Assembly (NCBI GenBank): GCA_947176335.1
Contig: CAMWQE010000003.1
Span: 1 to 38,087 of the forward strand
DNA length: 38,087 bases
Source: an uncultured Porphyromonadaceae bacterium
GTDB lineage: Bacteria > Bacteroidota > Bacteroidia > Bacteroidales > Muribaculaceae
Direction of reading: 5' to 3'
Shown: piece by piece, positions 579-27,034 of the stretch
Layout of the letters: every line of letters starts with the position of its first letter
Numbering within the stretch: the stretch's first letter is position 1
The notes under the pieces: generated by a model
What the model saw: only the letters and a program-made list of their open reading frames with translations
Database searches by the model: none
What the model was told of the DNA's origin: nothing
Program-made: the position numbers and the translations under genes

Positions 579-699
579 GATACAAATAGAGTTGGTATAA
601 TTATTTCTTATTCATTTTTCGCCGCAATATTTATGCGGTGTGGCAAAAATAAGCATTATCTATGAGATGAGGAATGCCATTACTAAATTTAAGGAAAGT

Positions 700-1611
700 T
701 CAGTCGCTTAATGTTGTCACATGACGTCCCGACAAATCGTAGGTCTGCATACGGAGGTACCAACCTAATGCCTCATAATCGCTGCCGAATTCCGCCTGTT
801 TTTCCACTGAAACCGGTTCTCCGATAGTAACATGCATCTTTTGATGGCTTTTCTTGAGCAGTTCGCGGACAAGGTTTGCGGTGCGCAATGGGATACTATG
901 ATGGCCCAGGAAGTTGAAATACCGTGAATTTGTGCCGTGGAAATATATCGGAATCACCGGAACCTTTGCTTTCTGGATGATTTGTAGGATTACAGGCTGC
1001 CACGGACGGTCGGTAATGATACCGTCTTTGTCAGTCTTGCCGATTGCTCCCGCCGGGAAAAAGCCAACAGGCTTGCCGTCCCTCAACATCGAGAGTGCTT
1101 CGCGGACCCCCGCTACCGATACCCTACGTTTCTCCGGGTCAGTAGACGCAGATTGGTCCACTGCTATAAAATTGGGACGCATAGCAGAAATATGGTTGAG
1201 TATCATATTGACCATCACCTTATATTCAGGACGCACGCGAGTAACGATATTTATAAGCATGATACCGTCGATGTGTCCAAAGGGATGATTGCTTACCGTA
1301 ATAAACGGTCCCTCTTTGAATCTCTCAAGAATTTCCATGCCGTCTACCTGAAGGTCAATCTTGAACTCATCCTTTATCAGATGTTCGGTAAACTCCGGCC
1401 CGGGTGTCTTGCACCAAGCCGAGTGGATGCGGTTCACCTCATCTATCTTGAAATAATGCATCAGCCATTTGACAAGTCGAGGATATTTTGCCGCAACAGG
1501 TGCAATCTCGATAATGTCTCTCATATTGAGCACATCCGGACGAACTTCTACATCCGGATATTCCTCAAAAACATATACCTCCTCGCCAAATTTATTTTTC
1601 TTGCTTATCAT
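700..1611 (-). CDS. 1-acyl-sn-glycerol-3-phosphate acyltransferase (PlsC/hemolysin-like lysophospholipid acyltransferase)
   Basis: 303 aa ORF with acyltransferase motifs VSNHPFGHIDG (HX4D-like) and GFFPAGAIGK, plus PVIPIYFHGTNSR. Confidence 0.85.
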   Translation of the reverse strand: MISKKNKFGEEVYVFEEYPDVEVRPDVLNMRDIIEIAPVAAKYPRLVKWLMHYFKIDEVNRIHSAWCKTPGPEFTEHLIKDEFKIDLQVDGMEILERFKEGPFITVSNHPFGHIDGIMLINIVTRVRPEYKVMVNMILNHISAMRPNFIAVDQSASTDPEKRRVSVAGVREALSMLRDGKPVGFFPAGAIGKTDKDGIITDRPWQPVILQIIQKAKVPVIPIYFHGTNSRYFNFLGHHSIPLRTANLVRELLKKSHQKMHVTIGEPVSVEKQAEFGSDYEALGWYLRMQTYDLSGRHVTTLSD

Positions 1612-2200
1612 TGTTGCTTAAGGTTGATTTTTTTGTTCCGATTCCGATTGCATTGAGGAAACGACCTATATATTTGTCAAATCGAGTCACTTTAAAGACG
1701 AAGTGGCGCTGAAGCAGGAAGTTCCAGCAGAGTGACACTGAAAGTGCAACAAAAAGACGCGCTGCAAGAAAAATACCGTCTTTTGATAAGCCCTTTATAT
1801 GATGCAGCCATTCCCAGCCGTTCACTAAAGAAAATACAGCTTCTGTACCAAAACTGTTTAGAAGCAACGAGCCCATCCATACAAACACGAATTTAGACAG
1901 TGCTATGCGCCAGTCAACTCCAAACGCATGGAATGTGAAACGATAATTGATGATACAATTGAAGATACCTCCGATAAAAGCTCCTATCGCCGTTGACAAC
2001 CATGCTGACAATCCAATAAAAGAGAATACCAGAAATGATGTCAGCGTGTCAATCCAGCCACATAGTTGGGATGACACGCTTGATCTTATCAGCGTGAAAA
2101 ACAATCCGTCGCTGTGCAGGATTTTATCCTTTATCTGTGCGATGCGGGTATTTTGCTGTTCCTGAGTCTCTTTCTTAATGGAGTCGGTATTATTATCCAT
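1592..2200 (-). CDS. GtrA family membrane protein
   Basis: Multi-pass protein with a GtrA-like core (SSQLCGWIDTLTSFLVFSFIGLSAWLSTAIGAFIGGIFNCIINYRFTF). The start is best placed at MDNNTDSIKK (2200), giving an 8-nt ATGGATAA overlap with the upstream gene. Confidence 0.8.
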   Translation of the reverse strand: MDNNTDSIKKETQEQQNTRIAQIKDKILHSDGLFFTLIRSSVSSQLCGWIDTLTSFLVFSFIGLSAWLSTAIGAFIGGIFNCIINYRFTFHAFGVDWRIALSKFVFVWMGSLLLNSFGTEAVFSLVNGWEWLHHIKGLSKDGIFLAARLFVALSVSLCWNFLLQRHFVFKVTRFDKYIGRFLNAIGIGTKKSTLSNNDKQEK

Positions 2201-2882
2201 GAAAGGGCTTTGGAGGATCAATCTTGGCAAGTGCTCTCAGGTCCTTGACCAAGGAGACGATATAGATGACAAAAAGTGCTACGGCAACGAGTGCTCCGAT
2301 TCCATCATAAATGGTCCAAGGCTCACCGAATACCTCCACAGTGTTGTCATTCAGCGGGAAGAAAATATAGAAAATGAAAACCGCGATGATTACCAATCGC
2401 ATTTCTGTTGGTCCTAAGCTTGCATAGGTAAGCCGGAACTTGCCGAGCACTATAGTGGAAATGTAAGTGTAAATCGACATACACAGGTAACCGCCCATAA
2501 TAAACAGGGAAATGCTGAGATACATCAGCGGAGATAGTCCCAGTCCGATACAGAACAGGCAGGTGGTCAGTGCATCAAGGGAATGATCAATAAAGAAACC
2601 ATATTTCGGACGCTGGGTATTACGTGTACGCGCAAGAGTTCCGTCAAGACTGTCCCCGTACCAGTTTAATACCAGACAGAATGAGGATGCCCACAGATAG
2701 TTCACATTATATCGCGCCAGCCAGCAAAATACAGCATATAACACCGCTGCGGCTACCCCGAAAAATGTAAGGGTATCAGAAGTCACCCATCTTGGCTGAC
2801 GTTTGGCAAACCACACTAATGTTTTCTTCTCAAGTCGGTTGAGAAGAGAAGTCTGGATGCGCTCCGCATTTTCATTTCCCAT
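2193..2882 (-). CDS. CDP-alcohol phosphatidyltransferase (candidate phosphatidylinositol-phosphate synthase)
   Basis: 229 aa with the CDP-OH-P motif DSLDGTLARTRNTQRPKYGFFIDHSLDA (DGX2ARX8GX3DX3D-like) and several TM segments. Located in the MIPS operon. Confidence 0.88.
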   Translation of the reverse strand: MGNENAERIQTSLLNRLEKKTLVWFAKRQPRWVTSDTLTFFGVAAAVLYAVFCWLARYNVNYLWASSFCLVLNWYGDSLDGTLARTRNTQRPKYGFFIDHSLDALTTCLFCIGLGLSPLMYLSISLFIMGGYLCMSIYTYISTIVLGKFRLTYASLGPTEMRLVIIAVFIFYIFFPLNDNTVEVFGEPWTIYDGIGALVAVALFVIYIVSLVKDLRALAKIDPPKPFHG

Positions 2883-2952
2883 TATTGGCTTATTTAAAAT
2901 GAATAAATGCCCAAAATATCAAAAGAAACAGGACATTGTGTTAAAACCGATA

Positions 2953-2985
2953 CAAAGTTAACATTTATATTTGAATTAGGACAAA
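2953..2985 (-). promoter_or_regulatory. Bacteroidetes-type promoter for the inositol-lipid operon
   Basis: On the minus strand: TTTG (2985-2982), N21, TAACTTTG (2960-2953), about 70 bp upstream of the CDP-alcohol phosphatidyltransferase start. Matches TTTG / TAnnTTTG. Confidence 0.6.
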
Positions 2986-3028
2986 ATGACAATAATTTGT
3001 ATTACGCCTTATTCACTGAGATGCATTA

Positions 3029-4144
3029 TCAGTCAGCATCATCCGATTTTGTCAGGTCAAGCACAACGTTATCGCTCTTGTTTTTCTCTATGTACTGCTT
3101 CCGGAGCGGATTGGTATGCATCCTGTCATGCACAGCCCTATTCCTGAAAATATCAATCGCTTCAAAAATCGCCTGACGCATTGAATCGGCATTGGCGATT
3201 CCGCGCCCGGCAATATCGTAAGCAGTGCCATGATCCGGTGAGGTACGCACAAACGGGAGTCCTGCCGTGAAATTTACTCCGGTGTTCATTGCAATTGTTT
3301 TGAACGGCGCCAGACCCTGGTCATGATACATGGCAAGCACGCCATCGAATTTTGTGAACTGTCCTGTGCCGAAAAAACCGTCACAGGCATAAGGACCGAA
3401 GCAATTAATCTTGTCTGTCTGGCATTCCGCTATTGCCGGCTCTATCACCTCTTTCTCCTCAGAGCCGAGCAAACCCTCTTCGCCTGCATGGGGATTGAGG
3501 GAAAGCACTGCGATGCGGGGGCGGTTGATGCCGAAATCCCTCCTCAAGGATTTGTCAAAATCTTTCAGGCGCTCCACCACCGCCTCCTTGGTTATTGCCT
3601 CCGGAACTTTCGAGATAGGGATGTGCCCGGTAACGAGTGCAACCCGGAGTGAGGTCGCGGGATCGGTAAGTATCATCAGCGCTTTCTCGCCGTTGTCGGC
3701 AAGCGATGCCTGGAGGTATTCGGTGTGCCCGGGGAAACGGAATGTCTCGCTTTGGATAGTGTGTTTGTCAATCGGAGCGGTGACAAGAACATCAATGTCA
3801 CCGGCGCGCAAGTCCGTCACGGCACGTTCAAGCGCGACAAATGCGGCATTACCCGCTTCTACCGACGCGATGCCCGGCTCAACCTTGACCTCTTCACCGA
3901 CCACATTTATAATATTGTTCTGTCCGTCCCGCGCTTCAGCCGCCCTTGATATCTGGTTCAACTGAATGGGGTTGGCAAGTGAGCTTTTCTTATAATATCC
4001 TGCAATCTTTGCCGAACCGTATATTACCGGAGTACAGATTTCAAGCATACGCTCATCTTCAAGAGCCTTGAGTATAATCTCGTAGCCAACTCCGTTTATG
4101 TCTCCTTGGGTAATTCCAACCCTTATCTTTTGTTTATCACTCAT
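3029..4144 (-). CDS. pdxA: 4-hydroxythreonine-4-phosphate dehydrogenase
   Basis: MSDKQKIRVGITQGDINGVGYEIILKAL..., RFPGHTEYLQ, SLNPHAGEEGLLGSEE, DGFFGTGQFTKFDGVLAMYHDQGLAPFK: classic PdxA motifs. Confidence 0.95.
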   Translation of the reverse strand: MSDKQKIRVGITQGDINGVGYEIILKALEDERMLEICTPVIYGSAKIAGYYKKSSLANPIQLNQISRAAEARDGQNNIINVVGEEVKVEPGIASVEAGNAAFVALERAVTDLRAGDIDVLVTAPIDKHTIQSETFRFPGHTEYLQASLADNGEKALMILTDPATSLRVALVTGHIPISKVPEAITKEAVVERLKDFDKSLRRDFGINRPRIAVLSLNPHAGEEGLLGSEEKEVIEPAIAECQTDKINCFGPYACDGFFGTGQFTKFDGVLAMYHDQGLAPFKTIAMNTGVNFTAGLPFVRTSPDHGTAYDIAGRGIANADSMRQAIFEAIDIFRNRAVHDRMHTNPLRKQYIEKNKSDNVVLDLTKSDDAD

Positions 4145-4179
4145 CGTTGTCAAGTATTTTTTCAGAAATGCCTTCCTCC

Positions 4180-5187
4180 TTATTTCTTGATTGAGGACGG
4201 ATTTGCCATATTCCACAAATTGAGATATGCCGCACGGGTAATATCAACTGTTTTCGGGTAGTTGATTTTGTCTGCATGGTCAGACGGCATGTGATAGGCG
4301 GGATGTCCGTCAGTATGGTACCATATAATGGGTATGTCACGTTTGGCAAAAGAGCCATTGTCTCCGCCACCGATAGGTCTGTCCCATGCACGGTAATCAG
4401 GTTTCAGGTTCAATCCCCGCTCCTTGATGTCATTTCTCAACCACTCTTCAAAAGCAGGATATGCGGCGGTGTAGAAATAAACCACATGCTCCGGAACATC
4501 TTCCCTGTTATTCCTTCCTATCATGTCAAAGTTGATATAGCCTTTGATTTTTTCAGGTTCAGCCCATGTCTGCATGAAATACTCGGAACCAAGCAAGCCT
4601 TTCTCTTCACCATCCCACAGAGCGAAGATGATTGTACGCTCAGGCTGTTCGCCACTCTCGATAAATGCACGGGCAATCTGAAGCACTGCGGCAACACCAG
4701 AAGCATTATCATCCGCGCCATTATATATTTTGTCCCCGTCCAGAAGTGGATCTACTCCAAGGTGATCGTAATGCGCTCCCATGACAACATACTCATCAGC
4801 ATTCTTTCCGGGAAGCACACCAAGTATATTTCTCAGATTAAGCTTCTGATGCACAGATTTTTGCAGTTCCGCAATACTATCCGGATGCACCTGATATCTG
4901 CCTCTGCGCTGCCTTTCAATCCGATATGCCTCAAATGGCTGTTCATAACCATTTGCATCCCAAGGCTTTAAACCCATAGCCTTGATGTTTGCAAGAACAT
5001 AATTGCCGGCAATCCTCCCGGACTTGTAGCCGGCTTCCCTGCCCTCCAGTTCATCGGAAGCGAGGAATCCTATATGCGCTTCGGCGGTTTCTGAATTGAT
5101 TGTACGGTATCCTTTGTCAACAGGTTTCTCCGCATTAAGCGTTGTGCAGATTGCACCGGCGAATATTGCAAGAAGAAATTTTTTCAT
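4180..5187 (-). CDS. M28 family metallopeptidase, secreted
   Basis: Signal peptide MKKFLLAIFAGAICTTLNA; M28 metal motifs VVMGAHYDHLG, NGADDNASGVAAVLQIARAF, WDGEEKGLLGSEYF, HTDGHPAYHMPSDHADKIN. Confidence 0.92.
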   Translation of the reverse strand: MKKFLLAIFAGAICTTLNAEKPVDKGYRTINSETAEAHIGFLASDELEGREAGYKSGRIAGNYVLANIKAMGLKPWDANGYEQPFEAYRIERQRRGRYQVHPDSIAELQKSVHQKLNLRNILGVLPGKNADEYVVMGAHYDHLGVDPLLDGDKIYNGADDNASGVAAVLQIARAFIESGEQPERTIIFALWDGEEKGLLGSEYFMQTWAEPEKIKGYINFDMIGRNNREDVPEHVVYFYTAAYPAFEEWLRNDIKERGLNLKPDYRAWDRPIGGGDNGSFAKRDIPIIWYHTDGHPAYHMPSDHADKINYPKTVDITRAAYLNLWNMANPSSIKK

Positions 5188-5230
5188 AAGGTATTAATTT
5201 ATAGTAAGCGCAAAAATACAAAAAAATTAG

Positions 5231-7069
5231 CTATTCTGAATGAAACGCATTGAATACAATAGAAGCTTTGGCGGGACCGACTACTGCCGCAAGGTCATCA
5301 AGATCCGCTTCCTTGATTCGCTTGACGCTCCGGAAATGCTTGAGCAAAGCTTCACGGGTCTTGGTGCCTATTCCTTTAACAGAATCAAGTTCTGATACAA
5401 GTTGCCCCTTGCTCCGTCTGTTCCTGTGATGGGTGATGCCGAAACGGTGCGCCTCATCGCGGAGATGCTGGACCACTCTGAGGCTGTCCGAATTTTTGTC
5501 GATATATAACGGCACACTGTCTCCGGGAAAATAAATTTCCTCAAGCCTCTTGGCAATGCCCACCACAGCGATTGTGCCCCGCAGTCCCATTTCATCAAGC
5601 GCCTCCACCGCGGCACTGAGCTGACCTTTGCCACCGTCAACCACAATCAGCTGCGGAAGCTCCTCCCCTTCATTGACAAGCCTCGTATATCTTCGGGTGA
5701 GCACCTCTTTCATGGAAGCGAAATCATCGGGACCTTCAACTGTCTTTATATTGAAATGCCTGTAATCTTTTTTCGAGGGTTTGCCGTCCTTGAATACGAC
5801 ACAGCTTGCAACCGGATTCGTTCCCTGTATATTCGAGTTATCGAAGCATTCAATATGGTGCGGAAGGGTTTCGAGGCGGAAATCAGATTTCATTCTTTCA
5901 AGGAGCTTTTGTGTGCGCTGCTCGGGGTCTTTGCGCGCAAGCTGGTTCAGCATATCTATTTTATGCTGCCGCGCATTACGCTCCGATACCTCCAGAAGTT
6001 TTGCTTTGTCACCTCTCTGGGGAACCATAAAAGTGACCCCGGGCATCTCTACATCCGGTTGCTCTGCAACAAGCACCGCCTCATATTCTATGTCAAATTG
6101 CTTCGCAATCTCAGCCATCGCGTAGCCGAGCAACTGGGGTGCGGTTTCATCCATACGCCTCTTATACTCCAGAGTCACGCTTCTTACAACCGCACCTCTT
6201 CTGACATGCATGTAATTTATGAATACATCAGCTCCACCATCGTCATCAATACCGAACACGTCCACATCTCCAATTGTTTGGCTCACTATGACGCTTTTCC
6301 CGCTGTAACGCTCCACAAGCTCATACTTCTCTTTTATCTCCTGCGCTTCCTCGAAACGCAACTCCGCACTTAGTTCGAGCATCTGTTTTTTGAGGTATTC
6401 AAGAAGTTCGGCAAGATCGCCCCGCAAAATCTTCTTCACGTTTTCAATCTGCTGGGCATATTCCTCCTGGCTGATTTTACCCACACATGGGCCTGAACAC
6501 CTTTTAATATGGTAATCCAGGCAAAGGCGTCCTTTCCCTTCAGCGACTGTAGACGGTGTTATCAAATGGCGACAGGAGCGCAGAGGATAAAGTTCCCGGA
6601 TAAGTTCAAGCACAGTTCGTGCCGAAGTGGTGTCAGTATATGGACCGTAATATTTGGAACCTTCAAGCTCTTTCTGCCTTGTCATGAAAACACGGGGGAA
6701 AGGCTCCTTGGTCACCACAATCATAGGATACGATTTGTCATCTTTAAGAAGCACATTGTACCTCGGCTTGTACTCCTTAATCATGGAGTTCTCAAGATTG
6801 AGGGCATCTTGCTCCGTAGGCACAACTATGTACTTCATATCTGCAATCGCACGCACAAGCAGGTTCGTCCTTGTGCTGTCGTGGGTGCGGTTGAAGTATG
6901 AGGATACTCTTCTTTTAAGATTTTTCGCTTTGCCGACATATATCACATTACCCTCGGAATCGAAATACATATATACTCCGGGGGTAGTGGGCAAAATAGA
7001 AATTTTGTCGGTGAGTTCCTGTGATTTTTTATGCTTAGCCAAATGGGGACTCCTTATATCAATAAACAA
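5231..7069 (-). CDS. uvrC: excinuclease ABC subunit C
   Basis: GIY-YIG N-terminus (PGVYMYFDSEGNVIYVGKAKNLKRRVSSYF), UvrC core (IECFDNSNIQGTNPVASCVVF, IVVDGGKGQLSAA) and C-terminal HhH. An in-frame TGA directly precedes the TTG at 7069, so the start is non-ATG. Confidence 0.95.
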   Translation of the reverse strand: MFIDIRSPHLAKHKKSQELTDKISILPTTPGVYMYFDSEGNVIYVGKAKNLKRRVSSYFNRTHDSTRTNLLVRAIADMKYIVVPTEQDALNLENSMIKEYKPRYNVLLKDDKSYPMIVVTKEPFPRVFMTRQKELEGSKYYGPYTDTTSARTVLELIRELYPLRSCRHLITPSTVAEGKGRLCLDYHIKRCSGPCVGKISQEEYAQQIENVKKILRGDLAELLEYLKKQMLELSAELRFEEAQEIKEKYELVERYSGKSVIVSQTIGDVDVFGIDDDGGADVFINYMHVRRGAVVRSVTLEYKRRMDETAPQLLGYAMAEIAKQFDIEYEAVLVAEQPDVEMPGVTFMVPQRGDKAKLLEVSERNARQHKIDMLNQLARKDPEQRTQKLLERMKSDFRLETLPHHIECFDNSNIQGTNPVASCVVFKDGKPSKKDYRHFNIKTVEGPDDFASMKEVLTRRYTRLVNEGEELPQLIVVDGGKGQLSAAVEALDEMGLRGTIAVVGIAKRLEEIYFPGDSVPLYIDKNSDSLRVVQHLRDEAHRFGITHHRNRRSKGQLVSELDSVKGIGTKTREALLKHFRSVKRIKEADLDDLAAVVGPAKASIVFNAFHSE

Positions 7070-7577
7070 TCAGGGAATCTACCTGCACATCCTCAGGCAA
7101 GGCTTTCCTGCCATTCAATGCACCCAGCTCTATAATGAAGTTGATATAAATTTTCTTCGGGTTCATGCTTTTCACGAGTTCGTAAGCCGCAGCCATTGTT
7201 CCACCCGTTGCAAGCACATCATCATGAAGCACGACTATGTCATCTTCCATAATAGCATCCTTATGGATTTCGATAGTGTCCTTACCATACTCTTTCGCAT
7301 AAGTTGCTTTGATTGTCTCTGCCGGAAGTTTGCCCGGTTTGCGCGCAGGCACAAATCCCGCTCCAAGCTCAAACGCAAGGATTGAACCGCAGATAAAACC
7401 TCGGCTCTCTATGCCCACGACCTTAGTCACACCCTTGTCACGATAGAGCTGGGATAAATCCCAGCCAAGGATATGCAGCGCACGCGGGTCCTTAAACGCA
7501 GTTGTCAAATCCTTAAACACGATTCCCTGGGTAGGGAAATCCATCACGTCCCTGATTTTTGATTTAATGTATTCCAT
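7059..7577 (-). CDS. apt: adenine phosphoribosyltransferase
   Basis: 172 aa; IRDVMDFPTQGIVFKDLTTAFKDP, GIESRGFICGSILA, VLHDDVLATGGTMAAAYELV (PRPP-binding motif). Confidence 0.95.
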   Translation of the reverse strand: MEYIKSKIRDVMDFPTQGIVFKDLTTAFKDPRALHILGWDLSQLYRDKGVTKVVGIESRGFICGSILAFELGAGFVPARKPGKLPAETIKATYAKEYGKDTIEIHKDAIMEDDIVVLHDDVLATGGTMAAAYELVKSMNPKKIYINFIIELGALNGRKALPEDVQVDSLIVY

Positions 7578-10196: not shown

Positions 10197-10958
10197 ATGA
10201 GCAAAATATCGGCAACAGTCATCACCTTCAACGAGGAGAACCATATTGCCCGATGCATCGAGTCACTCCGTGACATCGCCGATGAGATTATTGTGGTCGA
10301 TTCTTTTTCTACAGACAAGACCGCAGATATTTGTGAGGCATTAGGATGCAAAGTCACAAAACGTAAGATGCAAGGATATGGAGCACAAAGGCAGTATGCC
10401 ACCTCGCTTACCTGCCATAATTACGTTTTGGCTATTGATGCGGATGAAGTTCTTTCACCCGCGCTCCGCGCGTCACTCATAAAATTGAAAAACGGTGAAT
10501 TCAACCACCGCGGCTACTGCTTTGCACGCCTCAACTTTTATTGCGGCACACCTGTGAAACATTGCGGATGGTATCCCGATATCCAGGTTCGGCTGTTTGA
10601 CAAACGCTATGCAAACTGGAACCTGCATGATGTTGCTGAAAGGGTGATTTTCCGTGACAATGTCACACCTGTGAAACTTGACGGTGACATACTTCATTAC
10701 CGTTGCGCTACAGAAGAGGAGTTTCAGGAAACAGAGAAAGCTCATGCAGCCCTAATGGCAAAATCCCTGATAGAAAAGGGGGAAAATCCGAACGCACTTA
10801 CCCCATATATTCAGGGTATCAAAAGCTTCATCAAGTGCTATATCGCACAAGGAGGAGCATTCGATGGAATTGTAGGCACCGCAATCAGCAAGCAGCGCTA
10901 CCATTCCACACTCCTTGCCTGGAGTACCGCACGAAAAAAGAATAAAGGAAAAAAATAA
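10197..10958 (+). CDS. family 2 glycosyltransferase (WaaE/LgtF-like LPS core type)
   Basis: ISATVITFNEENHIARCIESLRDIADEIIVVDSFSTDKTADI..., YVLAIDADEVLS; start placed at MSKISATVITF. Confidence 0.88.
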   Translation: MSKISATVITFNEENHIARCIESLRDIADEIIVVDSFSTDKTADICEALGCKVTKRKMQGYGAQRQYATSLTCHNYVLAIDADEVLSPALRASLIKLKNGEFNHRGYCFARLNFYCGTPVKHCGWYPDIQVRLFDKRYANWNLHDVAERVIFRDNVTPVKLDGDILHYRCATEEEFQETEKAHAALMAKSLIEKGENPNALTPYIQGIKSFIKCYIAQGGAFDGIVGTAISKQRYHSTLLAWSTARKKNKGKK

Positions 10959-10987
10959 CCCAATATACCTCTCCCCTCCCCTATGCC

Positions 10988-12658
10988 ATGAGCAAACAAT
11001 TGAAAGTATATTGCAAGAACATCGAGGAATATGTGGACATTCAAGGTGGAAACTCCCTTCTTGACATATATAACAAGATTGCTGACCGACTGGACTTCGT
11101 TCCGGTATGCGCAAGAGTAAACTACAAGACTGAGGATTTATGTTTCCCGGTTTATGCTCCGAAAATGGTGGCATATCTGCCGGAAACCTCTCCAAGTGGA
11201 ACAAGAACCTATGTACGCTCACTATGCATGATGCTATATAAGGCTGTAGCAGAATGCTTTCCTGGCAAATCGCTTAAAATCGAACACTCTATCGCAAACG
11301 GTTACTTCTGCCGTTTGAACAACAATTGGATTCCCTCAGAAGAAAATGTCAGGGCACTGAAAAATAAAATGAGGGAATTTGTCGAGGCAGATATCCCATT
11401 TGAAAGGAAAGAGCGGTTGACAACTGACGTTGTAAAAATTTTTGAGAGACAAGGACTGAAAGACAAGGTCCTACTCCTGAATACCCTTCATGAGTTATAC
11501 ACTACATATTATCGTCTCGGAAACATCTGTGACAGCTATTACGGTCAGCTTGCCCCTTCAACTTCTTATCTGAATGTGTTTGACCTCGTTCCCTATAAGG
11601 ACGGATTCCTTCTGATGCCTTTTGACAAAAACGACATCAGTCAGGCTGCAAAACCTATAAACCAGGAAAAGATGTTCCGGGCATTCACCGACTATCTTGA
11701 TTTTAACAAGGTTGTCGGAATCCGAAATGTCGGAGAACTGAACAAAGCGGTCGAAGATGACCATTCTGCAATGGTAATCAATGTGTCAGAGGCAATGCAC
11801 AACAAGCGTATTGCAACAATTTCCGATGAAATCACCAAACGATACAATGAGGGAGGAGCCAGAGTCGTTCTAATCGCCGGGCCATCCTCAAGTGGCAAAA
11901 CAACATTTACAAAAAGGCTTGCCATACAGCTTATGACAAACCTGATGGAACCTGAATTGATTTCTCTCGATGACTATTTCGTTGACCGGCATCACACACC
12001 GAAAGATGAGTCGGGAGACTATGATTACGAGTCATTGTACGCTCTCGACCTCGAGCTGTTCAATGCCCATCTTGCGGCACTGCTGCGAGGAGAGGAAGTA
12101 GAACTCCCCTATTATAATTTCTCTACCGGAAGCAGAGAATTCCGCGGCAACAAAATAAAGTTGAAACCAAATTCAATCCTCCTTATAGAAGGGATACACG
12201 GACTGAATCCTGAGTTAACGAAATCAATCGAGCAGAAGATGAAATATCTTGTATATGTTTCTGCGCTGACCACAATATCAATTGACGACCACAATTGGGT
12301 ACCGACAACAGACAACAGGCTACTGCGCCGAATTATCCGCGACCACAAATACCGCGGCACTTCTGCTGTTGATACTATACGAAGATGGCCGAGTGTGAGA
12401 CGTGGCGAAGAGAAATGGATTTTCCCCTACCAGGAGAATGCCGATTCCACATTCAATTCATCACTATTATTTGAACTGGGTGTAATAAAGGATAGAGGCG
12501 AAGAGATTCTCCGCCATGTTCCGAGGGATGTGCCTGAATTCGGTGAAGCATCCCGACTACGCAAATTCCTGAGCTATTTCGCTTCAATAAGCGAAAAATA
12601 TGTGCCTTCAACCTCGCTCCTGAGAGAATTTCTGGGAGGCAGCTCTTTCAGCTATTAA
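10988..12658 (+). CDS. TGS-domain nucleoside (uridine) kinase-like P-loop protein
   Basis: 556 aa; TGS/ThrRS-like N-terminus, Walker A VVLIAGPSSSGKTTFTKRLA, PRK/uridine kinase motifs SLDDYFVDRHHTPKDESGDYDYESLYALD and NSILLIEGIHGLNPEL. Confidence 0.88.
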   Translation: MSKQLKVYCKNIEEYVDIQGGNSLLDIYNKIADRLDFVPVCARVNYKTEDLCFPVYAPKMVAYLPETSPSGTRTYVRSLCMMLYKAVAECFPGKSLKIEHSIANGYFCRLNNNWIPSEENVRALKNKMREFVEADIPFERKERLTTDVVKIFERQGLKDKVLLLNTLHELYTTYYRLGNICDSYYGQLAPSTSYLNVFDLVPYKDGFLLMPFDKNDISQAAKPINQEKMFRAFTDYLDFNKVVGIRNVGELNKAVEDDHSAMVINVSEAMHNKRIATISDEITKRYNEGGARVVLIAGPSSSGKTTFTKRLAIQLMTNLMEPELISLDDYFVDRHHTPKDESGDYDYESLYALDLELFNAHLAALLRGEEVELPYYNFSTGSREFRGNKIKLKPNSILLIEGIHGLNPELTKSIEQKMKYLVYVSALTTISIDDHNWVPTTDNRLLRRIIRDHKYRGTSAVDTIRRWPSVRRGEEKWIFPYQENADSTFNSSLLFELGVIKDRGEEILRHVPRDVPEFGEASRLRKFLSYFASISEKYVPSTSLLREFLGGSSFSY

Positions 12659-20016: not shown

Positions 20017-20047
20017 TTTGATAAATCCTCAAACCTCCTTATCTTTG
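20017..20047 (+). promoter_or_regulatory. promoter for the TPR/HTH regulator gene
   Basis: TTTG (20017-20020), N19, TATCTTTG (20040-20047); ATG at 20056, only 8 nt after the -7 box. Confidence 0.6.
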
Positions 20048-20055
20048 CCAAGACC

Positions 20056-21759
20056 ATGAAAGCAAGGCATATCATACTATTCCTCTTTATCTGCACGATT
20101 GCCGCGTGCACTACCCGCCATGATCCGAGGGTGGAATCACTATTTTCACTTGCCGAATCAGTGCCAGAAGCCGCTCTTGACTCCATCGACGCACTTGATT
20201 CACTCCACTTATCTTCTACAGACAGGATGCTGCTGCGCCTCGCCACAATCAAGGCTACCGACAAGGCAGACAGGCAACTGCCGGGCGACACCGCAATACT
20301 GCCGCTTGTCGACTACTACTCCTCGCACGAAACAGAACGCTACTACCCTACCGCGCTCTACTATGCCGGACGGATATACTCGGAATCGGGAGACTATCCC
20401 ACCGCACTCCGATACTTCCAGGACGCACTCGACTTACTGCCCGAAAACACGCCGGACCTCAATCTCCGGGCGGCTGCACTCAGCCAAACGGCTGCTATAC
20501 TCGCCAATCTGAGACTCTTTGACCAAGCTGAACCGTACTTCACTGAGGCATTGGAGATTGACCGACAAATGCGAGATACAATCAATATGATTTATGACCT
20601 TGAGAACCTTGCTAACATCACACTCAGAAATGGAGATTGCTATACAGCTTTATATCTGTTTCTATCTGCTGACAGCCTTACATCAAAGAAATTTCCGGCA
20701 AATACTCCTTATTCTAAGTCTAACATTGCATACGCCTATTATAAAAGCGGTGATATAAACTCTGCCTTAACCGCTGTCAAAGAATCACTTATTCCATCAA
20801 ATACAAAAGACCTGAATATCATCTATTCACAAGCAGCAACCATTTACTATAATGCGGGGTTATATGACAGTACTTACCAGTATGCAAGTAAATTGATAGG
20901 TTTGGGAAAGGACTCAAATAAAAGACTTGGCTACTATTACCTCATCCAACCAGAATTATCTGATTTCATACCGCATGATTCGATAAATAGTTATATGAAA
21001 AATTATAATGTCAATACTGAAATTTTTCTTAGCAAAAATTCAAATCAAGCTGCATTAATTCAAAATTCATATTACAACTACGCCACACATGAATTAAAAC
21101 GAATCTCTGCAGAAAAAAGCAAGAACAAGTTTCTTGTAATCGCTCTTATGCTTGCTATTATTTTATTATCACTTATAGTTGTCACACTGTTTGTTTCAAA
21201 CAGAAGCCACAAACGTAAACTGAGATTAACCGAAGCACTCAACAAAATAAGAGAACTGGAAAAAACAATTTCAGAGCAAACTATGAGCAACAAACTGAGC
21301 CCAGAACCTATACCAATAGATGTAACCGATTTGGATTCCACATCCGTAATCAGAGATTCTTTACGCAAACAATTGATAGATGCAGCAAAACTATCTAATC
21401 ATAAATATGTGATTCCGGAAGTAATATATACTTCATCTGAGTATTCAAAAGTCATAGATTTAATTCACTCTAATAAGAAAATCACTGAAGCTGTATTATG
21501 GGATAGTCTTGAAGATCTCACTAATAAGGCTTTTCCCAAATATAAAGATAATCTTTTATTGCTTTATGGAAAAACACCTCGTATCGAAGATATGAGAACA
21601 ATCCTGCTGATTAAATTGGGATGCCGTCCATCAGAACTTCAGATACTTCTCGGACTGGCAAAAGGCTCTGTGTCATCAAGAAGAGCCGAGATTTCCAAGC
21701 GCCTTTTAGGCGAATTATATGAACTGAAGACTGTAGACGCTGCAATACGCTTGTTATAA
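20056..21759 (+). CDS. membrane-spanning TPR regulator: lipoprotein-type signal, periplasmic TPRs, one TM helix, coiled coil and cytoplasmic HTH-like C-terminus
   Basis: MKARHIILFLFICTIAAC lipobox; TPR repeats (ALYYAGRIYSESGDYPTALRYFQDALDLLP); TM FLVIALMLAIILLSLIVVTLFV; C-terminus MRTILLIKLGCRPSELQILLGLAKGSVSSRRAEISKRLLG resembles LuxR-like HTHs at the end of similar Bacteroidales TPR proteins. Confidence 0.75.
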   Translation: MKARHIILFLFICTIAACTTRHDPRVESLFSLAESVPEAALDSIDALDSLHLSSTDRMLLRLATIKATDKADRQLPGDTAILPLVDYYSSHETERYYPTALYYAGRIYSESGDYPTALRYFQDALDLLPENTPDLNLRAAALSQTAAILANLRLFDQAEPYFTEALEIDRQMRDTINMIYDLENLANITLRNGDCYTALYLFLSADSLTSKKFPANTPYSKSNIAYAYYKSGDINSALTAVKESLIPSNTKDLNIIYSQAATIYYNAGLYDSTYQYASKLIGLGKDSNKRLGYYYLIQPELSDFIPHDSINSYMKNYNVNTEIFLSKNSNQAALIQNSYYNYATHELKRISAEKSKNKFLVIALMLAIILLSLIVVTLFVSNRSHKRKLRLTEALNKIRELEKTISEQTMSNKLSPEPIPIDVTDLDSTSVIRDSLRKQLIDAAKLSNHKYVIPEVIYTSSEYSKVIDLIHSNKKITEAVLWDSLEDLTNKAFPKYKDNLLLLYGKTPRIEDMRTILLIKLGCRPSELQILLGLAKGSVSSRRAEISKRLLGELYELKTVDAAIRLL

Positions 21760-21775
21760 CCATATTACGCTACTT

Positions 21776-21795
21776 TTCCGCACTTTTTCCGCACT
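21776..21795 (+). repeat. 20-bp direct repeat copy 1 (TTCCGCACTTTTTCCGCACT)
   Basis: Internal tandem CCGCAC-TTTTT-CCGCAC with 11-bp period; identical copy at 21952-21971. Confidence 0.9.
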
Positions 21796-21859
21796 ATATT
21801 CAACCGGATTTTGACCTATCAAAAAGCCGATTATATAAACATGGATTATTGCCATGACA

Positions 21860-21878
21860 ATATCGGCGCCACCGATAT
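21860..21878. repeat. inverted repeat ATATCGG-CGCCA-CCGATAT
   Basis: Perfect 7-bp arms with a 5-bp spacer in the intergenic region upstream of the small secreted protein gene. Confidence 0.75.
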
Positions 21879-21951
21879 CAGCGCCTAACATACTATTGAT
21901 TAACAAATAACTAAAGGATAACATCCACCCTTAGATGCCCTTCTAATATAA

Positions 21952-21971
21952 TTCCGCACTTTTTCCGCACT
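21952..21971 (+). repeat. 20-bp direct repeat copy 2 (TTCCGCACTTTTTCCGCACT)
   Basis: Identical to 21776-21795; ends 8 bp before the -33 TTGG element. Confidence 0.9.
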
Positions 21972-21978
21972 CAAATGC

Positions 21979-22009
21979 TTGGTATCGCTGATACCTGATT
22001 GTACCTTTG
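21979..22009 (+). promoter_or_regulatory. promoter with embedded palindrome GGTATC-GCT-GATACC
   Basis: TTG (21979-21981), N20, TACCTTTG (22002-22009); perfect 6-bp inverted repeat at 21981-21995 inside the spacer. Confidence 0.65.
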
Positions 22010-22033
22010 CATAAAACTATAAAACTAAACAAT

Positions 22034-22405
22034 ATGAAACTGAAAACACTTTGTGTGTTCTTATTTATGTTATTCGCTTTACCTTACTATGGTAAAGCTG
22101 ACATATTAATGCCGTTGGAACCTCCTATAATTGATGGGGAATCTGACCCAGACTACAGTAAACGAAAAATACCGCCTGTGCCAATTATGTGCTTTATAGA
22201 TTTTGAGGTAGGGACGGTGTCATTCAACTCCACTGCAATAGGTGAGATTGAGGAGTATCAGATTTGCAATGAATCGGGTGAAACCTGCATCGGCAGCTAT
22301 GATGACCTGGCTGAATTTGTTTCCGCATTGAGTAGCATTGACGGTGACTTATGCATCCGGTTCCTATCTCCAAAAGGATATTACACCGGATATATAACAA
22401 AATAA
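22034..22405 (+). CDS. small secreted protein of unknown function (possibly DUF3244-like)
   Basis: 123 aa from MKLKTLCVFLFMLFALPYYGKA signal peptide; mature region has four Cys and a short beta-rich core (FIDFEVGTVSFNSTAIGEIEEYQICNESGETCIGSY). Preceded by a good promoter. Confidence 0.65.
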   Translation: MKLKTLCVFLFMLFALPYYGKADILMPLEPPIIDGESDPDYSKRKIPPVPIMCFIDFEVGTVSFNSTAIGEIEEYQICNESGETCIGSYDDLAEFVSALSSIDGDLCIRFLSPKGYYTGYITK

Positions 22406-22447
22406 TTATTTCCGGACAATTACAGGAATATCTCTCTATCTTGTCAG

Positions 22448-22514
22448 GGATGGGGAAAAGGAATTGAGCTGATTTCTCGTGCCAATGTTAAATCAAGGTA
22501 CCTTTTCCCCATCC
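22448..22514 (+). repeat. long intergenic hairpin (14-bp perfect stem, 39-nt loop)
   Basis: GGATGGGGAAAAGG (22448-22461) and CCTTTTCCCCATCC (22501-22514); nested GATTT/AAATC pairing possible in the loop. Confidence 0.75.
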
Positions 22515-22598
22515 TGTTTCATCAAGTCCCTTAAAAAATAAAACAGTTGGGGCGCACCGCGTTCAACATCATGAATCAAAAATAAACAAATATATTAT

Positions 22599-24719
22599 AT
22601 GAAAATTACCCCCATCGCAGGAATTGCATTCGCACTTGCACTCGCAGGCTGCTCCGATGCAATCAATGAGCCGGAAGCACCGCAAAACCTCCCGGACTCA
22701 CGGTCCGTGGAGATTGCCGACACTACCTATAAATATGCCTACTACTATGACGACCGCGTAGAGGTGCCAATTGATGAATCAAAAAAGTATGTGATTGTCG
22801 AGGAGACGGTTGCAGACATTGCCGTTGCCGCGCCGGCAAAAGCACCGACCCGTTATGCCGGATACATAGTTGACGCCGCAGAACTACTCAAATCCGGCAA
22901 CACCTCAATAATGGCAGCCTCCGGAAACAATTCACCAATCGTTGCTATCGAAGATGTGACAGCTCACGGCACTCCGCTCAACAATTTCATATATGTGGGG
23001 CTTAAAAATGAATCCGACCTGCCTGTGCTTGAAAGGCTCGCCAAGAAAATAGGATGCATTGTACACGGCTCAATTTTAGACCACCCGAAATGGATAAAAC
23101 TGGAAACCGGCATAAACAGCGCCATGACTTCACTCCCCGCAGCAGCATACCTTTATGAAAACGGGGACTTCCAGTTCGTTGACCCCGGATTTGAGATTCA
23201 ATATGAAAGTCTTGCAAGCACCACACCTTCAGATCCTTATTTCAGCCAGCAGTGGAATTTGACTGGCGAATACGGCATAAATATCCTCCCTGCATGGGCT
23301 ATTTCTAAAGGGTCTCCTGATATAACTTTGGCTATCTATGACACGGGTGTAGTTAATATCTCAGACGAATTTACAGGAAGATTCACACAATTCTACTACG
23401 ATAACAATTTAACAATCTCAAATCCACATGGAACACAAGTCGCAGCGGTCGCAGCTGCATCCCATAATATGTCCTATATTGCAGGAGTCGCTCCTAATGC
23501 TAGACTAATGAATCTTAATTGGACATACGGTGGATATACACGTTCTGCAGAAGAGATTGCAGAGGGTTTTATATTATCTTATAAAAATGGAGCTGATATA
23601 ATAAATTGCTCATGGGGAGCATCGGCGCCTATCCAGAATCAAATTTTGGTAGAAGAAGCTTGCAAGGAAGCGATAATATTGGGTCGCAATGGTAAAGGAT
23701 GTATAGTAGTTTTCGCTGCCGGTAATAGTGATACATATGGAATCCAATATCCAGCAAGAAACATTCACGACGCAATAACTGTAGGTTCAACTAATACTTC
23801 TGGTATACGAAAAGGAACGTCATACGGTCCTCAAATGACAGTCTCAGCCCCAGGACATGAAATTCCTACCACACCAAATGAGAAAGGGGAATGTATTAAT
23901 TCTGGCACCTCCTATGCCGCACCCCAAGTCTCAGGGCTTGCGGCGCTTATTCTCAGCATACGCCCGGAGCTCACGGCGGCACAGGTAAAGCAGCTGATTA
24001 TTGAAACTGCATCCCGCTCCACACATAGCGACGAGTACGGTTGGGGTATTATAAATGCCGGATATGCTATGCAGGCTGCAAATCAGGACTATGCGATTTC
24101 ATGTCCTTCTGCTGGAGTAATCTCTCCAAATGATGGGAAATTGACATTTACCTTGTCTAACGTACCGAGGGGGGCAACTGTAAGCTGGTCAAGCAAATTG
24201 GCATCGCAGAAACTTAATTCCTCAAACTCCTCAGCTACGTTTTTCTATCCCTCTATCGGAGCTGGGTATGAAACAGTATCAGCTACTGTATCATATCTGG
24301 GCAAAACAAAAGAAGTTACATACCAATGCTATCTTACTTTAAGTACTGTGGTAAATTCAATTAATATTCTGGAAGACTATGACTGGTTAGGAGCTAACCA
24401 AATACATCTTTTTGCTGACTGTTCTAAAGAAAATGCACCGATTGAATGGAAAATAACAAGCAGTAATGGGTGCAATTTCCAACTTGTTGAATTTCCTCTT
24501 GCTGGAGATGCCAGCTTTATGAGTAATCCTAACGCATATATTACGCTTCAATATGGTGATCCTATGACACCTTTGACTTCAATACCGGAGGGAGCCTACT
24601 GTGAAATAACAGCAGAAGTGAATGAGCCGTATGGTGTGTGGCATCGTTGCACTCTCCGCTGGACAAATCTTTGGAACGGATATCAGTGGATTCTTGAGGA
24701 TAATGGTTTCCTCCGATAA
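22599..24719 (+). CDS. S8 family (subtilisin-like) serine peptidase lipoprotein with C-terminal accessory domains
   Basis: Lipobox LALAGCSD; catalytic triad blocks LAIYDTGV (Asp), NPHGTQVAAVAAA (His), NSGTSYAAPQVSGLAALIL (Ser); oxyanion VVFAAGNSD. Confidence 0.93.
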   Translation: MKITPIAGIAFALALAGCSDAINEPEAPQNLPDSRSVEIADTTYKYAYYYDDRVEVPIDESKKYVIVEETVADIAVAAPAKAPTRYAGYIVDAAELLKSGNTSIMAASGNNSPIVAIEDVTAHGTPLNNFIYVGLKNESDLPVLERLAKKIGCIVHGSILDHPKWIKLETGINSAMTSLPAAAYLYENGDFQFVDPGFEIQYESLASTTPSDPYFSQQWNLTGEYGINILPAWAISKGSPDITLAIYDTGVVNISDEFTGRFTQFYYDNNLTISNPHGTQVAAVAAASHNMSYIAGVAPNARLMNLNWTYGGYTRSAEEIAEGFILSYKNGADIINCSWGASAPIQNQILVEEACKEAIILGRNGKGCIVVFAAGNSDTYGIQYPARNIHDAITVGSTNTSGIRKGTSYGPQMTVSAPGHEIPTTPNEKGECINSGTSYAAPQVSGLAALILSIRPELTAAQVKQLIIETASRSTHSDEYGWGIINAGYAMQAANQDYAISCPSAGVISPNDGKLTFTLSNVPRGATVSWSSKLASQKLNSSNSSATFFYPSIGAGYETVSATVSYLGKTKEVTYQCYLTLSTVVNSINILEDYDWLGANQIHLFADCSKENAPIEWKITSSNGCNFQLVEFPLAGDASFMSNPNAYITLQYGDPMTPLTSIPEGAYCEITAEVNEPYGVWHRCTLRWTNLWNGYQWILEDNGFLR

Positions 24720-24739
24720 TCATATTAATTAAAATTTAT

Positions 24740-24747
24740 TATCTTTG
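24740..24747 (+). promoter_or_regulatory. -7 promoter box TATCTTTG upstream of lipoprotein copy 1
   Basis: TATCTTTG, 26 nt before the ATG at 24774; matches TAnnTTTG. Confidence 0.5.
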
Positions 24748-24773
24748 CAAATAAACTATTAAACCAAACAGAT

Positions 24774-25457
24774 ATGAATAAAATCCTCCTCGGCTTCACC
24801 GCACTTTTCGCCGTTACCCTTTTCAGCGCCTGTTCAGCAGACGACAGCTTCCTCACAGATGATGAGATTAATCAGTTGGACAAAGAAACATCCTCGAAAT
24901 TTGTAGGCTTAAACTCCCTATATGGAAATTTTTCAGAACAACTTGAATACCCAGATAATGTGACCAACTATGCCATTATAATCCGTAGCAAAAAAGAGAT
25001 GGAAGACTATGGTTTGGTAGGCGGTGAAATTGTAAATGACACTACCTCATATACTATTACTGATGATAACACTATTATCAAAAATAATATAAAACCCTTT
25101 GATGATCCTTCCCGTCCAACAAAACTTATTGATTATTATAAGGATATAAATTGGGATAAACAAAGTCTTGTGGTATTAACATGTTATAATTCATCTATTT
25201 GCCGCTATATTGCTAATCTTGATGGAAGTATATATCATAAAAAAGGAAAATATTATGTAGTGATAAAGCCTTTAGTACAGACTTATCAAATCTGCTCACA
25301 GGCTCTTTACAGGGATGGTGCTGCATTTGTTGTAAACACTCCAAACCTCAAGAAAAAAGATTTGGTCATACAAATTAATGCAAAAGTATCCATCATGAAT
25401 CCTAAAACATTTAAATTAGAAATACAGGATATTTCTAAACCTCTTGAATTCAAATAA
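24774..25457 (+). CDS. tandem lipoprotein paralog 1
   Basis: 227 aa; lipobox TLFSACSADDS; about half of the sequence shared with copies 2 and 3. Confidence 0.85.
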   Translation: MNKILLGFTALFAVTLFSACSADDSFLTDDEINQLDKETSSKFVGLNSLYGNFSEQLEYPDNVTNYAIIIRSKKEMEDYGLVGGEIVNDTTSYTITDDNTIIKNNIKPFDDPSRPTKLIDYYKDINWDKQSLVVLTCYNSSICRYIANLDGSIYHKKGKYYVVIKPLVQTYQICSQALYRDGAAFVVNTPNLKKKDLVIQINAKVSIMNPKTFKLEIQDISKPLEFK

Positions 25458-25481
25458 ATACTCCCTTCCCTATCCCCCTGC

Positions 25482-25512
25482 GGGCGTGCCGGATTTGGAT
25501 TCCGGTACGCCC
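25482..25512 (+). terminator. intergenic hairpin between lipoprotein copies 1 and 2 (no U-tract)
   Basis: GGGCGTGCCGGA-TTTGGAT-TCCGGTACGCCC, 12-bp stem with one G-U pair; followed by CACATTATAAC rather than a T-run. Confidence 0.5.
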
Positions 25513-25845
25513 CACATTATAACAGAATAATTTTGCAAAGAAAACCATAAAACCAAACAGATATGAATAAAATCCTCCTCGGCTTGACCGCACTTTTCGC
25601 CGTTACCCTTTTCAGCGCCTGTTCAGCAGATGACAGCTTCCTCACAGATGATGAGATTAATCAGTTGGACAAAGAGACATCATCTAAATTTATAGGAATA
25701 AACGCTTTAAGTGGCAATTTTTCTGAAGAATATAATCATATAGAGATCAACTACGCTATTATATTCCATAGCAAGAAAGAATTAGAAGAATACGGATTAT
25801 CCGGTAACATAGTAAATGATACAACATCATATACTATTAATGATA
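25482..25845 (+). repeat. 364-bp perfect direct repeat, copy A
   Basis: By eye, base-identical to 26241-26604 (offset 759); spans hairpin, -7 box, 5' UTR and first ~94 codons. Confidence 0.85.
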
Positions 25846-26216
25846 ATAATTATGTGTCTCAAAACTTTCACTTACGCACTACACTTAGCGAGTATTATAA
25901 GGATATAAATTGGGACAAACAAAGTCTTGTCGTATTAACATGCTATAATTCGGACGTCTGCCGCCATATTGTAAACCTTGATGGAAGCATGTATCATAAA
26001 AAAGGAAAATATTATGTGGTGATAAAGACTTTCGTCCAGAAAAATTTCATCTGCTTACAATCGACTTACAGGGATGGTGCTGCATTTGTTGTAAACACTC
26101 CAAACCTTAAGAAAAAGGATTTGGTCATACAAGTCAATGCAAAAGTATCCATCATGAATCCTGAAACATTTAAATGGGAAATACAGGATATTTCCAAACC
26201 TCTTGACTTCAAATAA
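25563..26216 (+). CDS. tandem lipoprotein paralog 2
   Basis: 217 aa; identical N-terminal half to copy 3, C-terminal part closest to copy 1. Confidence 0.85.
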   Translation: MNKILLGLTALFAVTLFSACSADDSFLTDDEINQLDKETSSKFIGINALSGNFSEEYNHIEINYAIIFHSKKELEEYGLSGNIVNDTTSYTINDNNYVSQNFHLRTTLSEYYKDINWDKQSLVVLTCYNSDVCRHIVNLDGSMYHKKGKYYVVIKTFVQKNFICLQSTYRDGAAFVVNTPNLKKKDLVIQVNAKVSIMNPETFKWEIQDISKPLDFK

Positions 26217-26240
26217 ATACTCCCTTCCCTATTCCCCATC

Positions 26241-26271
26241 GGGCGTGCCGGATTTGGATTCCGGTACGCCC
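26241..26271 (+). terminator. intergenic hairpin between lipoprotein copies 2 and 3 (no U-tract)
   Basis: Same GGGCGTGCCGGA-TTTGGAT-TCCGGTACGCCC stem-loop as at 25482. Confidence 0.5.
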
Positions 26272-26604
26272 CACATTATAACAGAATAATTTTGCAAAGA
26301 AAACCATAAAACCAAACAGATATGAATAAAATCCTCCTCGGCTTGACCGCACTTTTCGCCGTTACCCTTTTCAGCGCCTGTTCAGCAGATGACAGCTTCC
26401 TCACAGATGATGAGATTAATCAGTTGGACAAAGAGACATCATCTAAATTTATAGGAATAAACGCTTTAAGTGGCAATTTTTCTGAAGAATATAATCATAT
26501 AGAGATCAACTACGCTATTATATTCCATAGCAAGAAAGAATTAGAAGAATACGGATTATCCGGTAACATAGTAAATGATACAACATCATATACTATTAAT
26601 GATA
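26241..26604 (+). repeat. 364-bp perfect direct repeat, copy B
   Basis: Base-identical by eye to 25482-25845. Confidence 0.85.
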
Positions 26605-26972
26605 TTAATTATGTGTCTCAAAATTTTTACAATATGATGACACTGAGCGAGTACTATAAGGATATTAATTGGGATAAACAAAGTCTTGTTGTAATAACCT
26701 GTGAATATTTTACAACAAATCATACACTTATAAACTTTGACGGAAGTATATATCACAAAAAAGGAAAGTACTATATATTAATGAATCCTTTGGTTCAGAC
26801 CGGACTTATCCCCATGCAAGCTGTTGATAGAAATGGTGCCGCATTTGTTGTAAACACTCCAAATCTCAAGAAAAAAGATTTGGTCATACAAGTCAATGCG
26901 AAAGTATCTGTCATGGGTAACCCACATAAATTTGAAATCCGGGATATTTCTAAACCTCTTGACTTCAAATAA
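26322..26972 (+). CDS. tandem lipoprotein paralog 3
   Basis: 216 aa; lipobox TLFSACSADDS; diverges from copy 2 after NDI/NDN-NYVSQNF. Confidence 0.85.
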   Translation: MNKILLGLTALFAVTLFSACSADDSFLTDDEINQLDKETSSKFIGINALSGNFSEEYNHIEINYAIIFHSKKELEEYGLSGNIVNDTTSYTINDINYVSQNFYNMMTLSEYYKDINWDKQSLVVITCEYFTTNHTLINFDGSIYHKKGKYYILMNPLVQTGLIPMQAVDRNGAAFVVNTPNLKKKDLVIQVNAKVSVMGNPHKFEIRDISKPLDFK

Positions 26973-26995: not shown

Positions 26996-27034
26996 GCGAG
27001 CGTGCCGGATTGGATGCCGGCATGCCCGCTTTTT
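26996..27034 (+). terminator. rho-independent terminator after lipoprotein copy 3
   Basis: GCGAGCGTGCCGG-ATTGGATG-CCGGCATGCCCGC (13-bp stem, one mismatch, one G-U) followed by TTTTTATTT. Confidence 0.75.

Follow-up and report, generated by a model that had tools for sequence, protein, structure and literature searches.

In the cassettes of the RRNPP type (Rap-Phr, PlcR-PapR, NprR-NprX-NprA), the gene of a TPR and HTH receptor is followed by that of a small secreted product, often near an exported protease. The receptors, from Firmicutes, are cytoplasmic, with N-terminal Xre HTH or phosphatase-type domains, and the signals are imported short peptides. In the dentilisin complex of Treponema, the S8 lipoprotein PrtP is found with PrcB. 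The SusR-like regulators of Bacteroides are Bacteroidetes membrane one-component activators with a periplasmic sensor, a C-terminal cytoplasmic HTH-like domain and direct-repeat operators; their predicted sites, which concern glycan uptake, consist of a pair of boxes separated by 67 or 77 bp (PMC3878776). Finally, in the Bfp/Bfi pairs of Bacteroides fragilis a C10 protease has a small exported protein as its neighbour, and no regulator is mentioned for them (PMC2873492).

The window, by which we mean the whole stretch of DNA analysed here (38,087 nucleotides, an entire contig from the draft genome of an uncultured Muribaculaceae bacterium), contains a block of genes (20056-26972, Table 1) whose nearest known counterparts are SusR in design and the RRNPP cassettes in layout. 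Its first product, REG, has like the SusR-like regulators an extracytoplasmic sensor, a single transmembrane helix and a C-terminal HTH, the topology being predicted and the likeness drawn from descriptions. It differs from SusR by candidate operator units that are 11 bp apart and often doubled as an inverted pair, the 67 or 77 bp spacing not being found, and by its TPR sensor domain, its linked small secreted protein (SML) and its protease or peptide cargo. As in the RRNPP cassettes, a TPR and HTH receptor gene stands directly ahead of the gene of a small secreted product. However, REG is predicted to be membrane-bound, with a signal or lipobox N-terminus and a C-terminal HTH rather than a cytoplasmic Xre HTH, and in its model SML folds into a domain of about 75 residues and is not a short peptide. 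The Bfp/Bfi pairs resemble the cargo of a sister locus, with a C10 protease at the same site in genome G251, whereas the protease of the window is of the S8 type, and SML is also met with non-protease cargo. An S8 lipoprotein next to small lipoproteins recalls dentilisin, but neither a PrcB_C domain nor a PrcA-like gene was found. In open-licence literature, we found no description of a REG-SML cassette or of its operator, and nothing relevant on membrane regulators of the TPR/HTH kind that have direct repeats or C10, serpin or radical-SAM cargo. We propose, with a probability of about 0.62, that the core of the locus is a sensor cassette of two genes whose cargo can be exchanged, REG being a one-component activator in the membrane that has an operator of its own.

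Table 1. Positions of the features of the block within the window.
Feature	Positions	Strand	Remarks
REG promoter -7 box TATCTTTGC	20040..20048	+	TTG at 20018; leader very short
REG	20056..21759	+	lipobox/signal N-terminus, predicted periplasmic TPR domain, one TM helix (residues ~359-381), C-terminal LuxR/GerE-like HTH
Distal candidate operator block, 2-3 units of 11 bp (TTTTCCGCACTTTTTCCGCACT)	21774..21795	+	just past REG stop codon
Promoter-proximal candidate operator block TTCCGCACTTTTTCCGCACT	21952..21971	+	ends 30 bp 5′ of SML -7 box
SML promoter TTG-N20-TACCTTTGC	21979..22010	+	palindrome GGTATCgctGATACC in spacer
SML	22034..22405	+	small protein secreted by Sec; C-terminal part modelled as an Ig-type beta-sandwich like DUF3244
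Inverted repeat of 14 bp, perfect, with a loop of 39 nt	22448..22514	+	between SML and S8, without T tract
S8 subtilase lipoprotein	22599..24719	+	D248, H277, N376, S438
Lipoprotein 1	24740..25457	+	ORF 24774-25457, own -7 box (24740)
Lipoprotein 2	25528..26216	+	ORF 25563-26216, own -7 box (25528)
Lipoprotein 3	26287..26972	+	ORF 26322-26972, own -7 box (26287); its end resembles that of copy 2, its middle has diverged
Terminator-like hairpin with T tract, block end	27000..27025	+	

The original prediction had described six consecutive plus-strand genes, forming an accessory block amid housekeeping genes and closed by a terminator. All six ORFs were recovered at or near the predicted positions, and a hairpin with a T tract does close the block. 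From their sequence, the genes on either side appear to be housekeeping genes (recF-like, DUF721, exonuclease-like, D-Tyr-tRNA deacylase-like and deoC-like). The block is an accessory insertion: of the related genomes compared at this junction, five are empty (G216, G236, G074, G206 and G267), the exonuclease-like gene and the 453-aa gene that border the block in the window being adjacent there, and two contain other cargo. In G251, the junction is occupied by REG, SML, a C10 protease and a serpin instead of the cargo of the window, and in G271 by SML and a serpin alone, at a contig end. Given these empty sites and alternative contents, we consider that the insertion site is fixed and the cargo variable. 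The six genes are not one system; it is the front end, REG then SML, that is conserved as a unit. The block itself and its dedicated membrane regulator, as originally proposed, were retained, but not the unity and boundary of a self-contained six-gene protease module, as SML is associated with REG and not with a protease, and the lipoproteins have their own promoter boxes.

REG was expected to be a membrane-spanning TPR protein with an HTH-like tail. It gave many Pfam TPR matches, as well as a weak match to RapH (PDB 3q15, E=0.0017), and a single strong hydrophobic segment was present around residues 355-385. Cys18, in a lipobox-like context, is invariant in 21 relatives. The C-terminal HTH, whose recognition helix contains KGSVSSRRAEISKR, weakly resembles response-regulator effector domains of the VraR/RcsB type (best E=0.057 against solved structures). 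The C-terminus is placed in the cytoplasm because a basic stretch follows the transmembrane helix; the topology agrees with expectation, at the level of a prediction. A search of 198 genomes of the order, with a prefilter that limits sensitivity, returned no REG match outside the family at E<=1e-30.

Relatives of SML were found in 36 of 297 genomes of the Muribaculaceae family (~12% of those sampled). At about three quarters of 41 SML loci, REG lies 5′ of SML on the same strand, at 23-248 bp save one exception; SML loci without an upstream REG are mostly near contig ends. Reciprocally, SML is present at 52 of 85 non-redundant REG genes, and since it is absent from the other 33 it is not essential to every REG. 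The genome of the window itself contains a second SML, located after a REG fragment and before a serpin. Across the order (295 genomes), the SML search produced one weak match outside the family, the prefilter again limiting sensitivity.

The genes behind REG-SML are exchanged between loci. Their classes include C10 proteases with a serpin, radical-SAM peptide maturases, GLPGLI/outer-membrane barrel genes and propeller operons encoding short conserved peptides, which we take to be NVEALA on our own reading. Among 64 first cargo genes classified with Pfam, we counted 10 radical SAM proteins, 8-9 C10 proteases with a Spi domain, 5 GLPGLI-type and 5 DUF1573 proteins, together with beta-propellers; serpins (8) and outer-membrane barrels (7) were found among 53 second cargo genes. 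With NCBIfam, four loci were near radical-SAM/SPASM peptide maturases and one was assigned to GLPGLI. A subtilase with three lipoproteins was the cargo of the window only, among the loci sampled, so that the gene-neighbourhood comparison upheld the association of REG with SML and not that of the regulator with the S8 and lipoprotein genes.

This diversity bears on the role of SML, for which the original prediction had considered a substrate, a pro-form or an inhibitor of the protease. Such a function is unlikely as a general role, because SML accompanies REG across unrelated cargo, preceding radical-SAM/RiPP, GLPGLI and NVEALA genes too. A protease-inhibitor module, in which SML would be a periplasmic inhibitor or chaperone of the adjacent protease (like Spi, staphostatin or Bfi) and the pair would be placed under REG, does account for the C10 proteases that SML precedes at several loci and for the serpins among the same cargo, and in B. 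fragilis C10 genes share transcripts with small inhibitors (PMC2873492). It is nevertheless an improbable explanation: SML also stands ahead of radical-SAM maturase, GLPGLI/barrel and NVEALA/propeller operons that lack a protease, it is followed by a serpin alone in G271, and the C10 cargo carries its own Spi-type (I69) domain. Moreover, the fold match of SML, a modest one, is to DUF3244 and not to staphostatin. The AlphaFold model (pLDDT 82) is good for residues 50-123, and the most credible Foldseek matches were the DUF3244 structures 3sd2 and 3d33 (probability 0.66-0.77, E about 0.3, TM below 0.5). With Pfam PF11589 (DUF3244), the SML of the window gave no match and 2 of 37 relatives matched weakly (best E=0.01); the T9SS type A sorting domain matched weakly in 3 of 42 relatives, and an SML profile search of the PDB gave no match. 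In its model, SML resembles a DUF3244-like beta-sandwich of about 75 residues standing free. The likeness to the Ig-type sandwich of DUF3244 proteins (PDB 3D33, 3SD2, 4G5A), and the profile matches to these and to the T9SS type A sorting domain, have weak scores, and SML is not attached to a larger host protein. Rather than an inhibitor, it could be a signal or a co-sensor within the REG-SML cassette.

The S8 gene encodes an ordinary subtilase domain (PF00082, E=1.7e-39). D248, N376 and S438 were assigned by motif and H277 was counted from the DNA, which locates the intact triad (D248, H277, S438) that had been announced. No full-length relative of this protein was found in 33 other genomes of the genus. 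The window contains 24 boxes of sequence TAnnTTTGC where 7.3 would be expected, a threefold enrichment; such boxes stand ahead of REG, of SML, of every lipoprotein gene and of the housekeeping gene that comes next. As no such box was found ahead of S8 within 22301-22600, the protease is probably read from the SML promoter, and a single transcript shared by SML and S8 seems a reasonable expectation. The 14-bp inverted repeat between them could attenuate the read-through. Judging from these boxes, the likely transcription units are REG, SML-S8 and three single lipoprotein genes. The latter are, as proposed, tandem paralogues (79-83% identity to the middle copy). Profile searches including Pfam matched them to no family, and a structure prediction made from the three copies of the window (pLDDT 34) sustains no fold claim. 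Kinship with PrcB_C (PF14343) was considered for them and dropped, this domain being undetected in the lipoproteins and in 41 genomes that included the window genome and its relatives.

Could all six genes still work together in surface proteolysis, under common regulation, S8 having the lipoproteins as its substrates, inhibitors or stabilisers? The six are contiguous, on the same strand, with one T-tract terminator at the end, and an S8 gene with an adjacent small lipoprotein recalls the Treponema dentilisin operon, the denti_PrtP profile matching S8 well below its cut-off. We judge this quite unlikely, however: each lipoprotein has its own promoter box, the candidate operator is found before SML only, PrcB_C is undetected, and a related triplet (closest copy 49% identical) exists elsewhere in G236 without REG, SML or S8 beside it. 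Because this triplet stands alone, we separate the lipoproteins from the sensor cassette; that they functionally belong to S8 is doubtful, and they are best described as neighbours of the REG-SML cassette rather than proven partners.

Candidate target sites of REG were found. In the window, TTCCGCACTTTTTCCGCACT occurs twice between REG and SML, and the distal and proximal blocks are 176 bp apart (16×11). Elsewhere in the same genome, the operator was matched at one site only, with three mismatches. Within 300 nt 3′ of REG, 54% of the 85 non-redundant REG genes have a stretch of 8 nt or more that recurs identically at lag 11, compared to 1.5% of 461 other gene ends on these contigs, 2.2% of 180 upstream regions bearing a promoter and 0.6% of shuffled sequences. 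Other lags gave mostly 0-6%, with a small excess at lag 12 (12%), and the region 5′ of REG showed no excess (1.9%). A clear lag-11 repeat was missing from 46% of REG loci, a proportion reduced to 34% once lags 10-12 were accepted. The position is also fixed: in 24 of 43 cases, the repeat block ends exactly 30-31 nt before a TAnnTTTG box (30 in the window), which corresponds to the Bacteroides -7 element (PMC7366714). When loci were aligned on this box, the repeat fell at about -52 to -32, many loci having an inverted pair further upstream. These phased 11-bp repeats are candidate REG operators, and very likely REG acts on that of the window. A specific phased repeat 5′ of the next promoter after genes of the REG family also speaks for the predicted existence of a one-component regulator proper to the block.

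As read from the loci, the candidate operator sequence differs from one to the next and tracks the recognition helix of the regulator. The half-sites include TTTCCGCACT, TTTCCGTTAT, TTTCAGTCAT, TTTTCGAACC and AATTGGAACT. CCG operators were found with 22 of the 24 REG proteins having SR[RK] in the recognition helix, versus 3 of the 14 others (Fisher p=1.9e-5). Distances between HTH domains correlated with distances between operators (Mantel r=0.34, p about 0.002), and the partial correlation after removal of the TPR-domain distance was r=0.27 (p=0.0065), a figure that ancestry shared among loci still partly confounds. A fixed-register test of this covariation gave no signal and a register-free test was positive; the former result is due to blocks being shifted by one base between loci. 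In genome G588, the source of locus L107, the operator (TTTCAGTCAT, twice) had an exact match at its own locus only, as one inverted pair. The next best sites were TTTCCGTCAT repeats, one of which matches the operator sequence of another module, L119. That the repeats are instead bound by another factor (a nucleoid protein or an unlinked activator), REG being adjacent by chance, is very improbable: about a third of REG loci do lack a clear repeat, but the repeats are specific to regions downstream of REG, locus-specific, tracking the HTH and unique in the genome where tested, and a factor common to all loci would require that they have one sequence between them.

For the REG-SML cassette, we therefore envisage the following course of events. 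REG would sit in the inner membrane, with its TPR domain in the periplasm, one helix across and its LuxR/GerE-like HTH in the cytoplasm. It would bind the helically phased 11-bp repeats located 30-31 bp 5′ of the -7 box and turn on the SML promoter; we infer both DNA binding and activation, rather than repression. The SML transcript would probably run on into the cargo, here the S8 subtilase. If the operator sequence is private to each REG, several cassettes may coexist in a genome without cross-talk. SML would most likely be a partner of the TPR domain, as a ligand, a co-sensor or a feedback signal, and this signalling role is preferred because the gene order fits; an action of SML on REG is nonetheless somewhat less than an even bet. 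More tentative still is the broader proposal that Muribaculaceae possess a family of insulated cassettes, in each of which SML would be a pheromone or autoinducer of protein nature, sensed by the membrane TPR receptor encoded next to it, and this receptor would command exchangeable cargo (for proteases, RiPPs or peptide uptake) by way of a private operator phased at 11 bp.

In the mouse gut, Muribaculaceae belong to the most abundant bacteria, and we found no account, in open-licence literature, of how the family regulates its secreted proteases, its serpins and its RiPPs. With a regulator that recurs and an operator that can be read, predictions can be made directly, promoter by promoter, for dozens of secreted systems as yet uncharacterised, including some of cultured strains (locus L124 of Duncaniella muris), and the REG paralogues form a natural series for testing the specificity of HTH for operator. 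If SML proves to be the signal, a bacterial TPR receptor would have a protein ligand of a new class, and the cassette, if our reading of it is correct, would be a Gram-negative counterpart of the RRNPP logic.

The two operator blocks, proposed binding sites for the TPR/HTH membrane regulator (REG) that lie between its gene and that of the small secreted protein (SML), are spaced by 176 bp. As this is exactly 16 x 11 bp, both stand in the same phase, a disposition that possibly reflects looping, or else chance. A putative 15-codon ORF, MDYCHDNIGATDISA, is located between them.

The same genome carries two further regulator homologues. One belongs to another REG-SML module, which includes a serpin lipoprotein; there the SML reading frame stops early, at 109 aa, and the operator has a period of 10 bp. 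The other is full-length and has no SML; downstream of it, no clear lag-11 repeat (exact, at least 8 nt, 11-nt offset, in the 300 nt after REG) was found.

Elsewhere, one contig (L133) holds three clustered REG genes, and locus L075 has two SML genes, the second of which has a promoter box of its own and lies downstream of REG at a distance of about 3.6 kb. Inside the L049 REG-SML operon, a 90-aa peptide with a GG, a candidate RiPP precursor, adjoins a radical SAM/SPASM maturase; the peptide matched no NCBIfam model.

Lipoprotein copies 2 and 3 are almost identical at their 5′ ends, similar at their 3′ ends and diverged in the middle (lowest identity 45-50% per 40 nt), a pattern resembling that left by gene conversion with a variable core.

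Coordinates of the features described
Locus	Feature	Position
Window	Operator blocks	21776; 21952
Window	15-codon ORF	21841-21888
Window	Lipoprotein copies 2 and 3 (+)	25563-26972
G000:C92 (L010)	Second REG-SML module	1-2091
G000:C81 (L011)	Third REG homologue	1828-3513
L133	Three REG genes	1-6182
L049	90-aa peptide	11186-11458
L075	First SML	7150-7566
L075	Second SML	10689-11072
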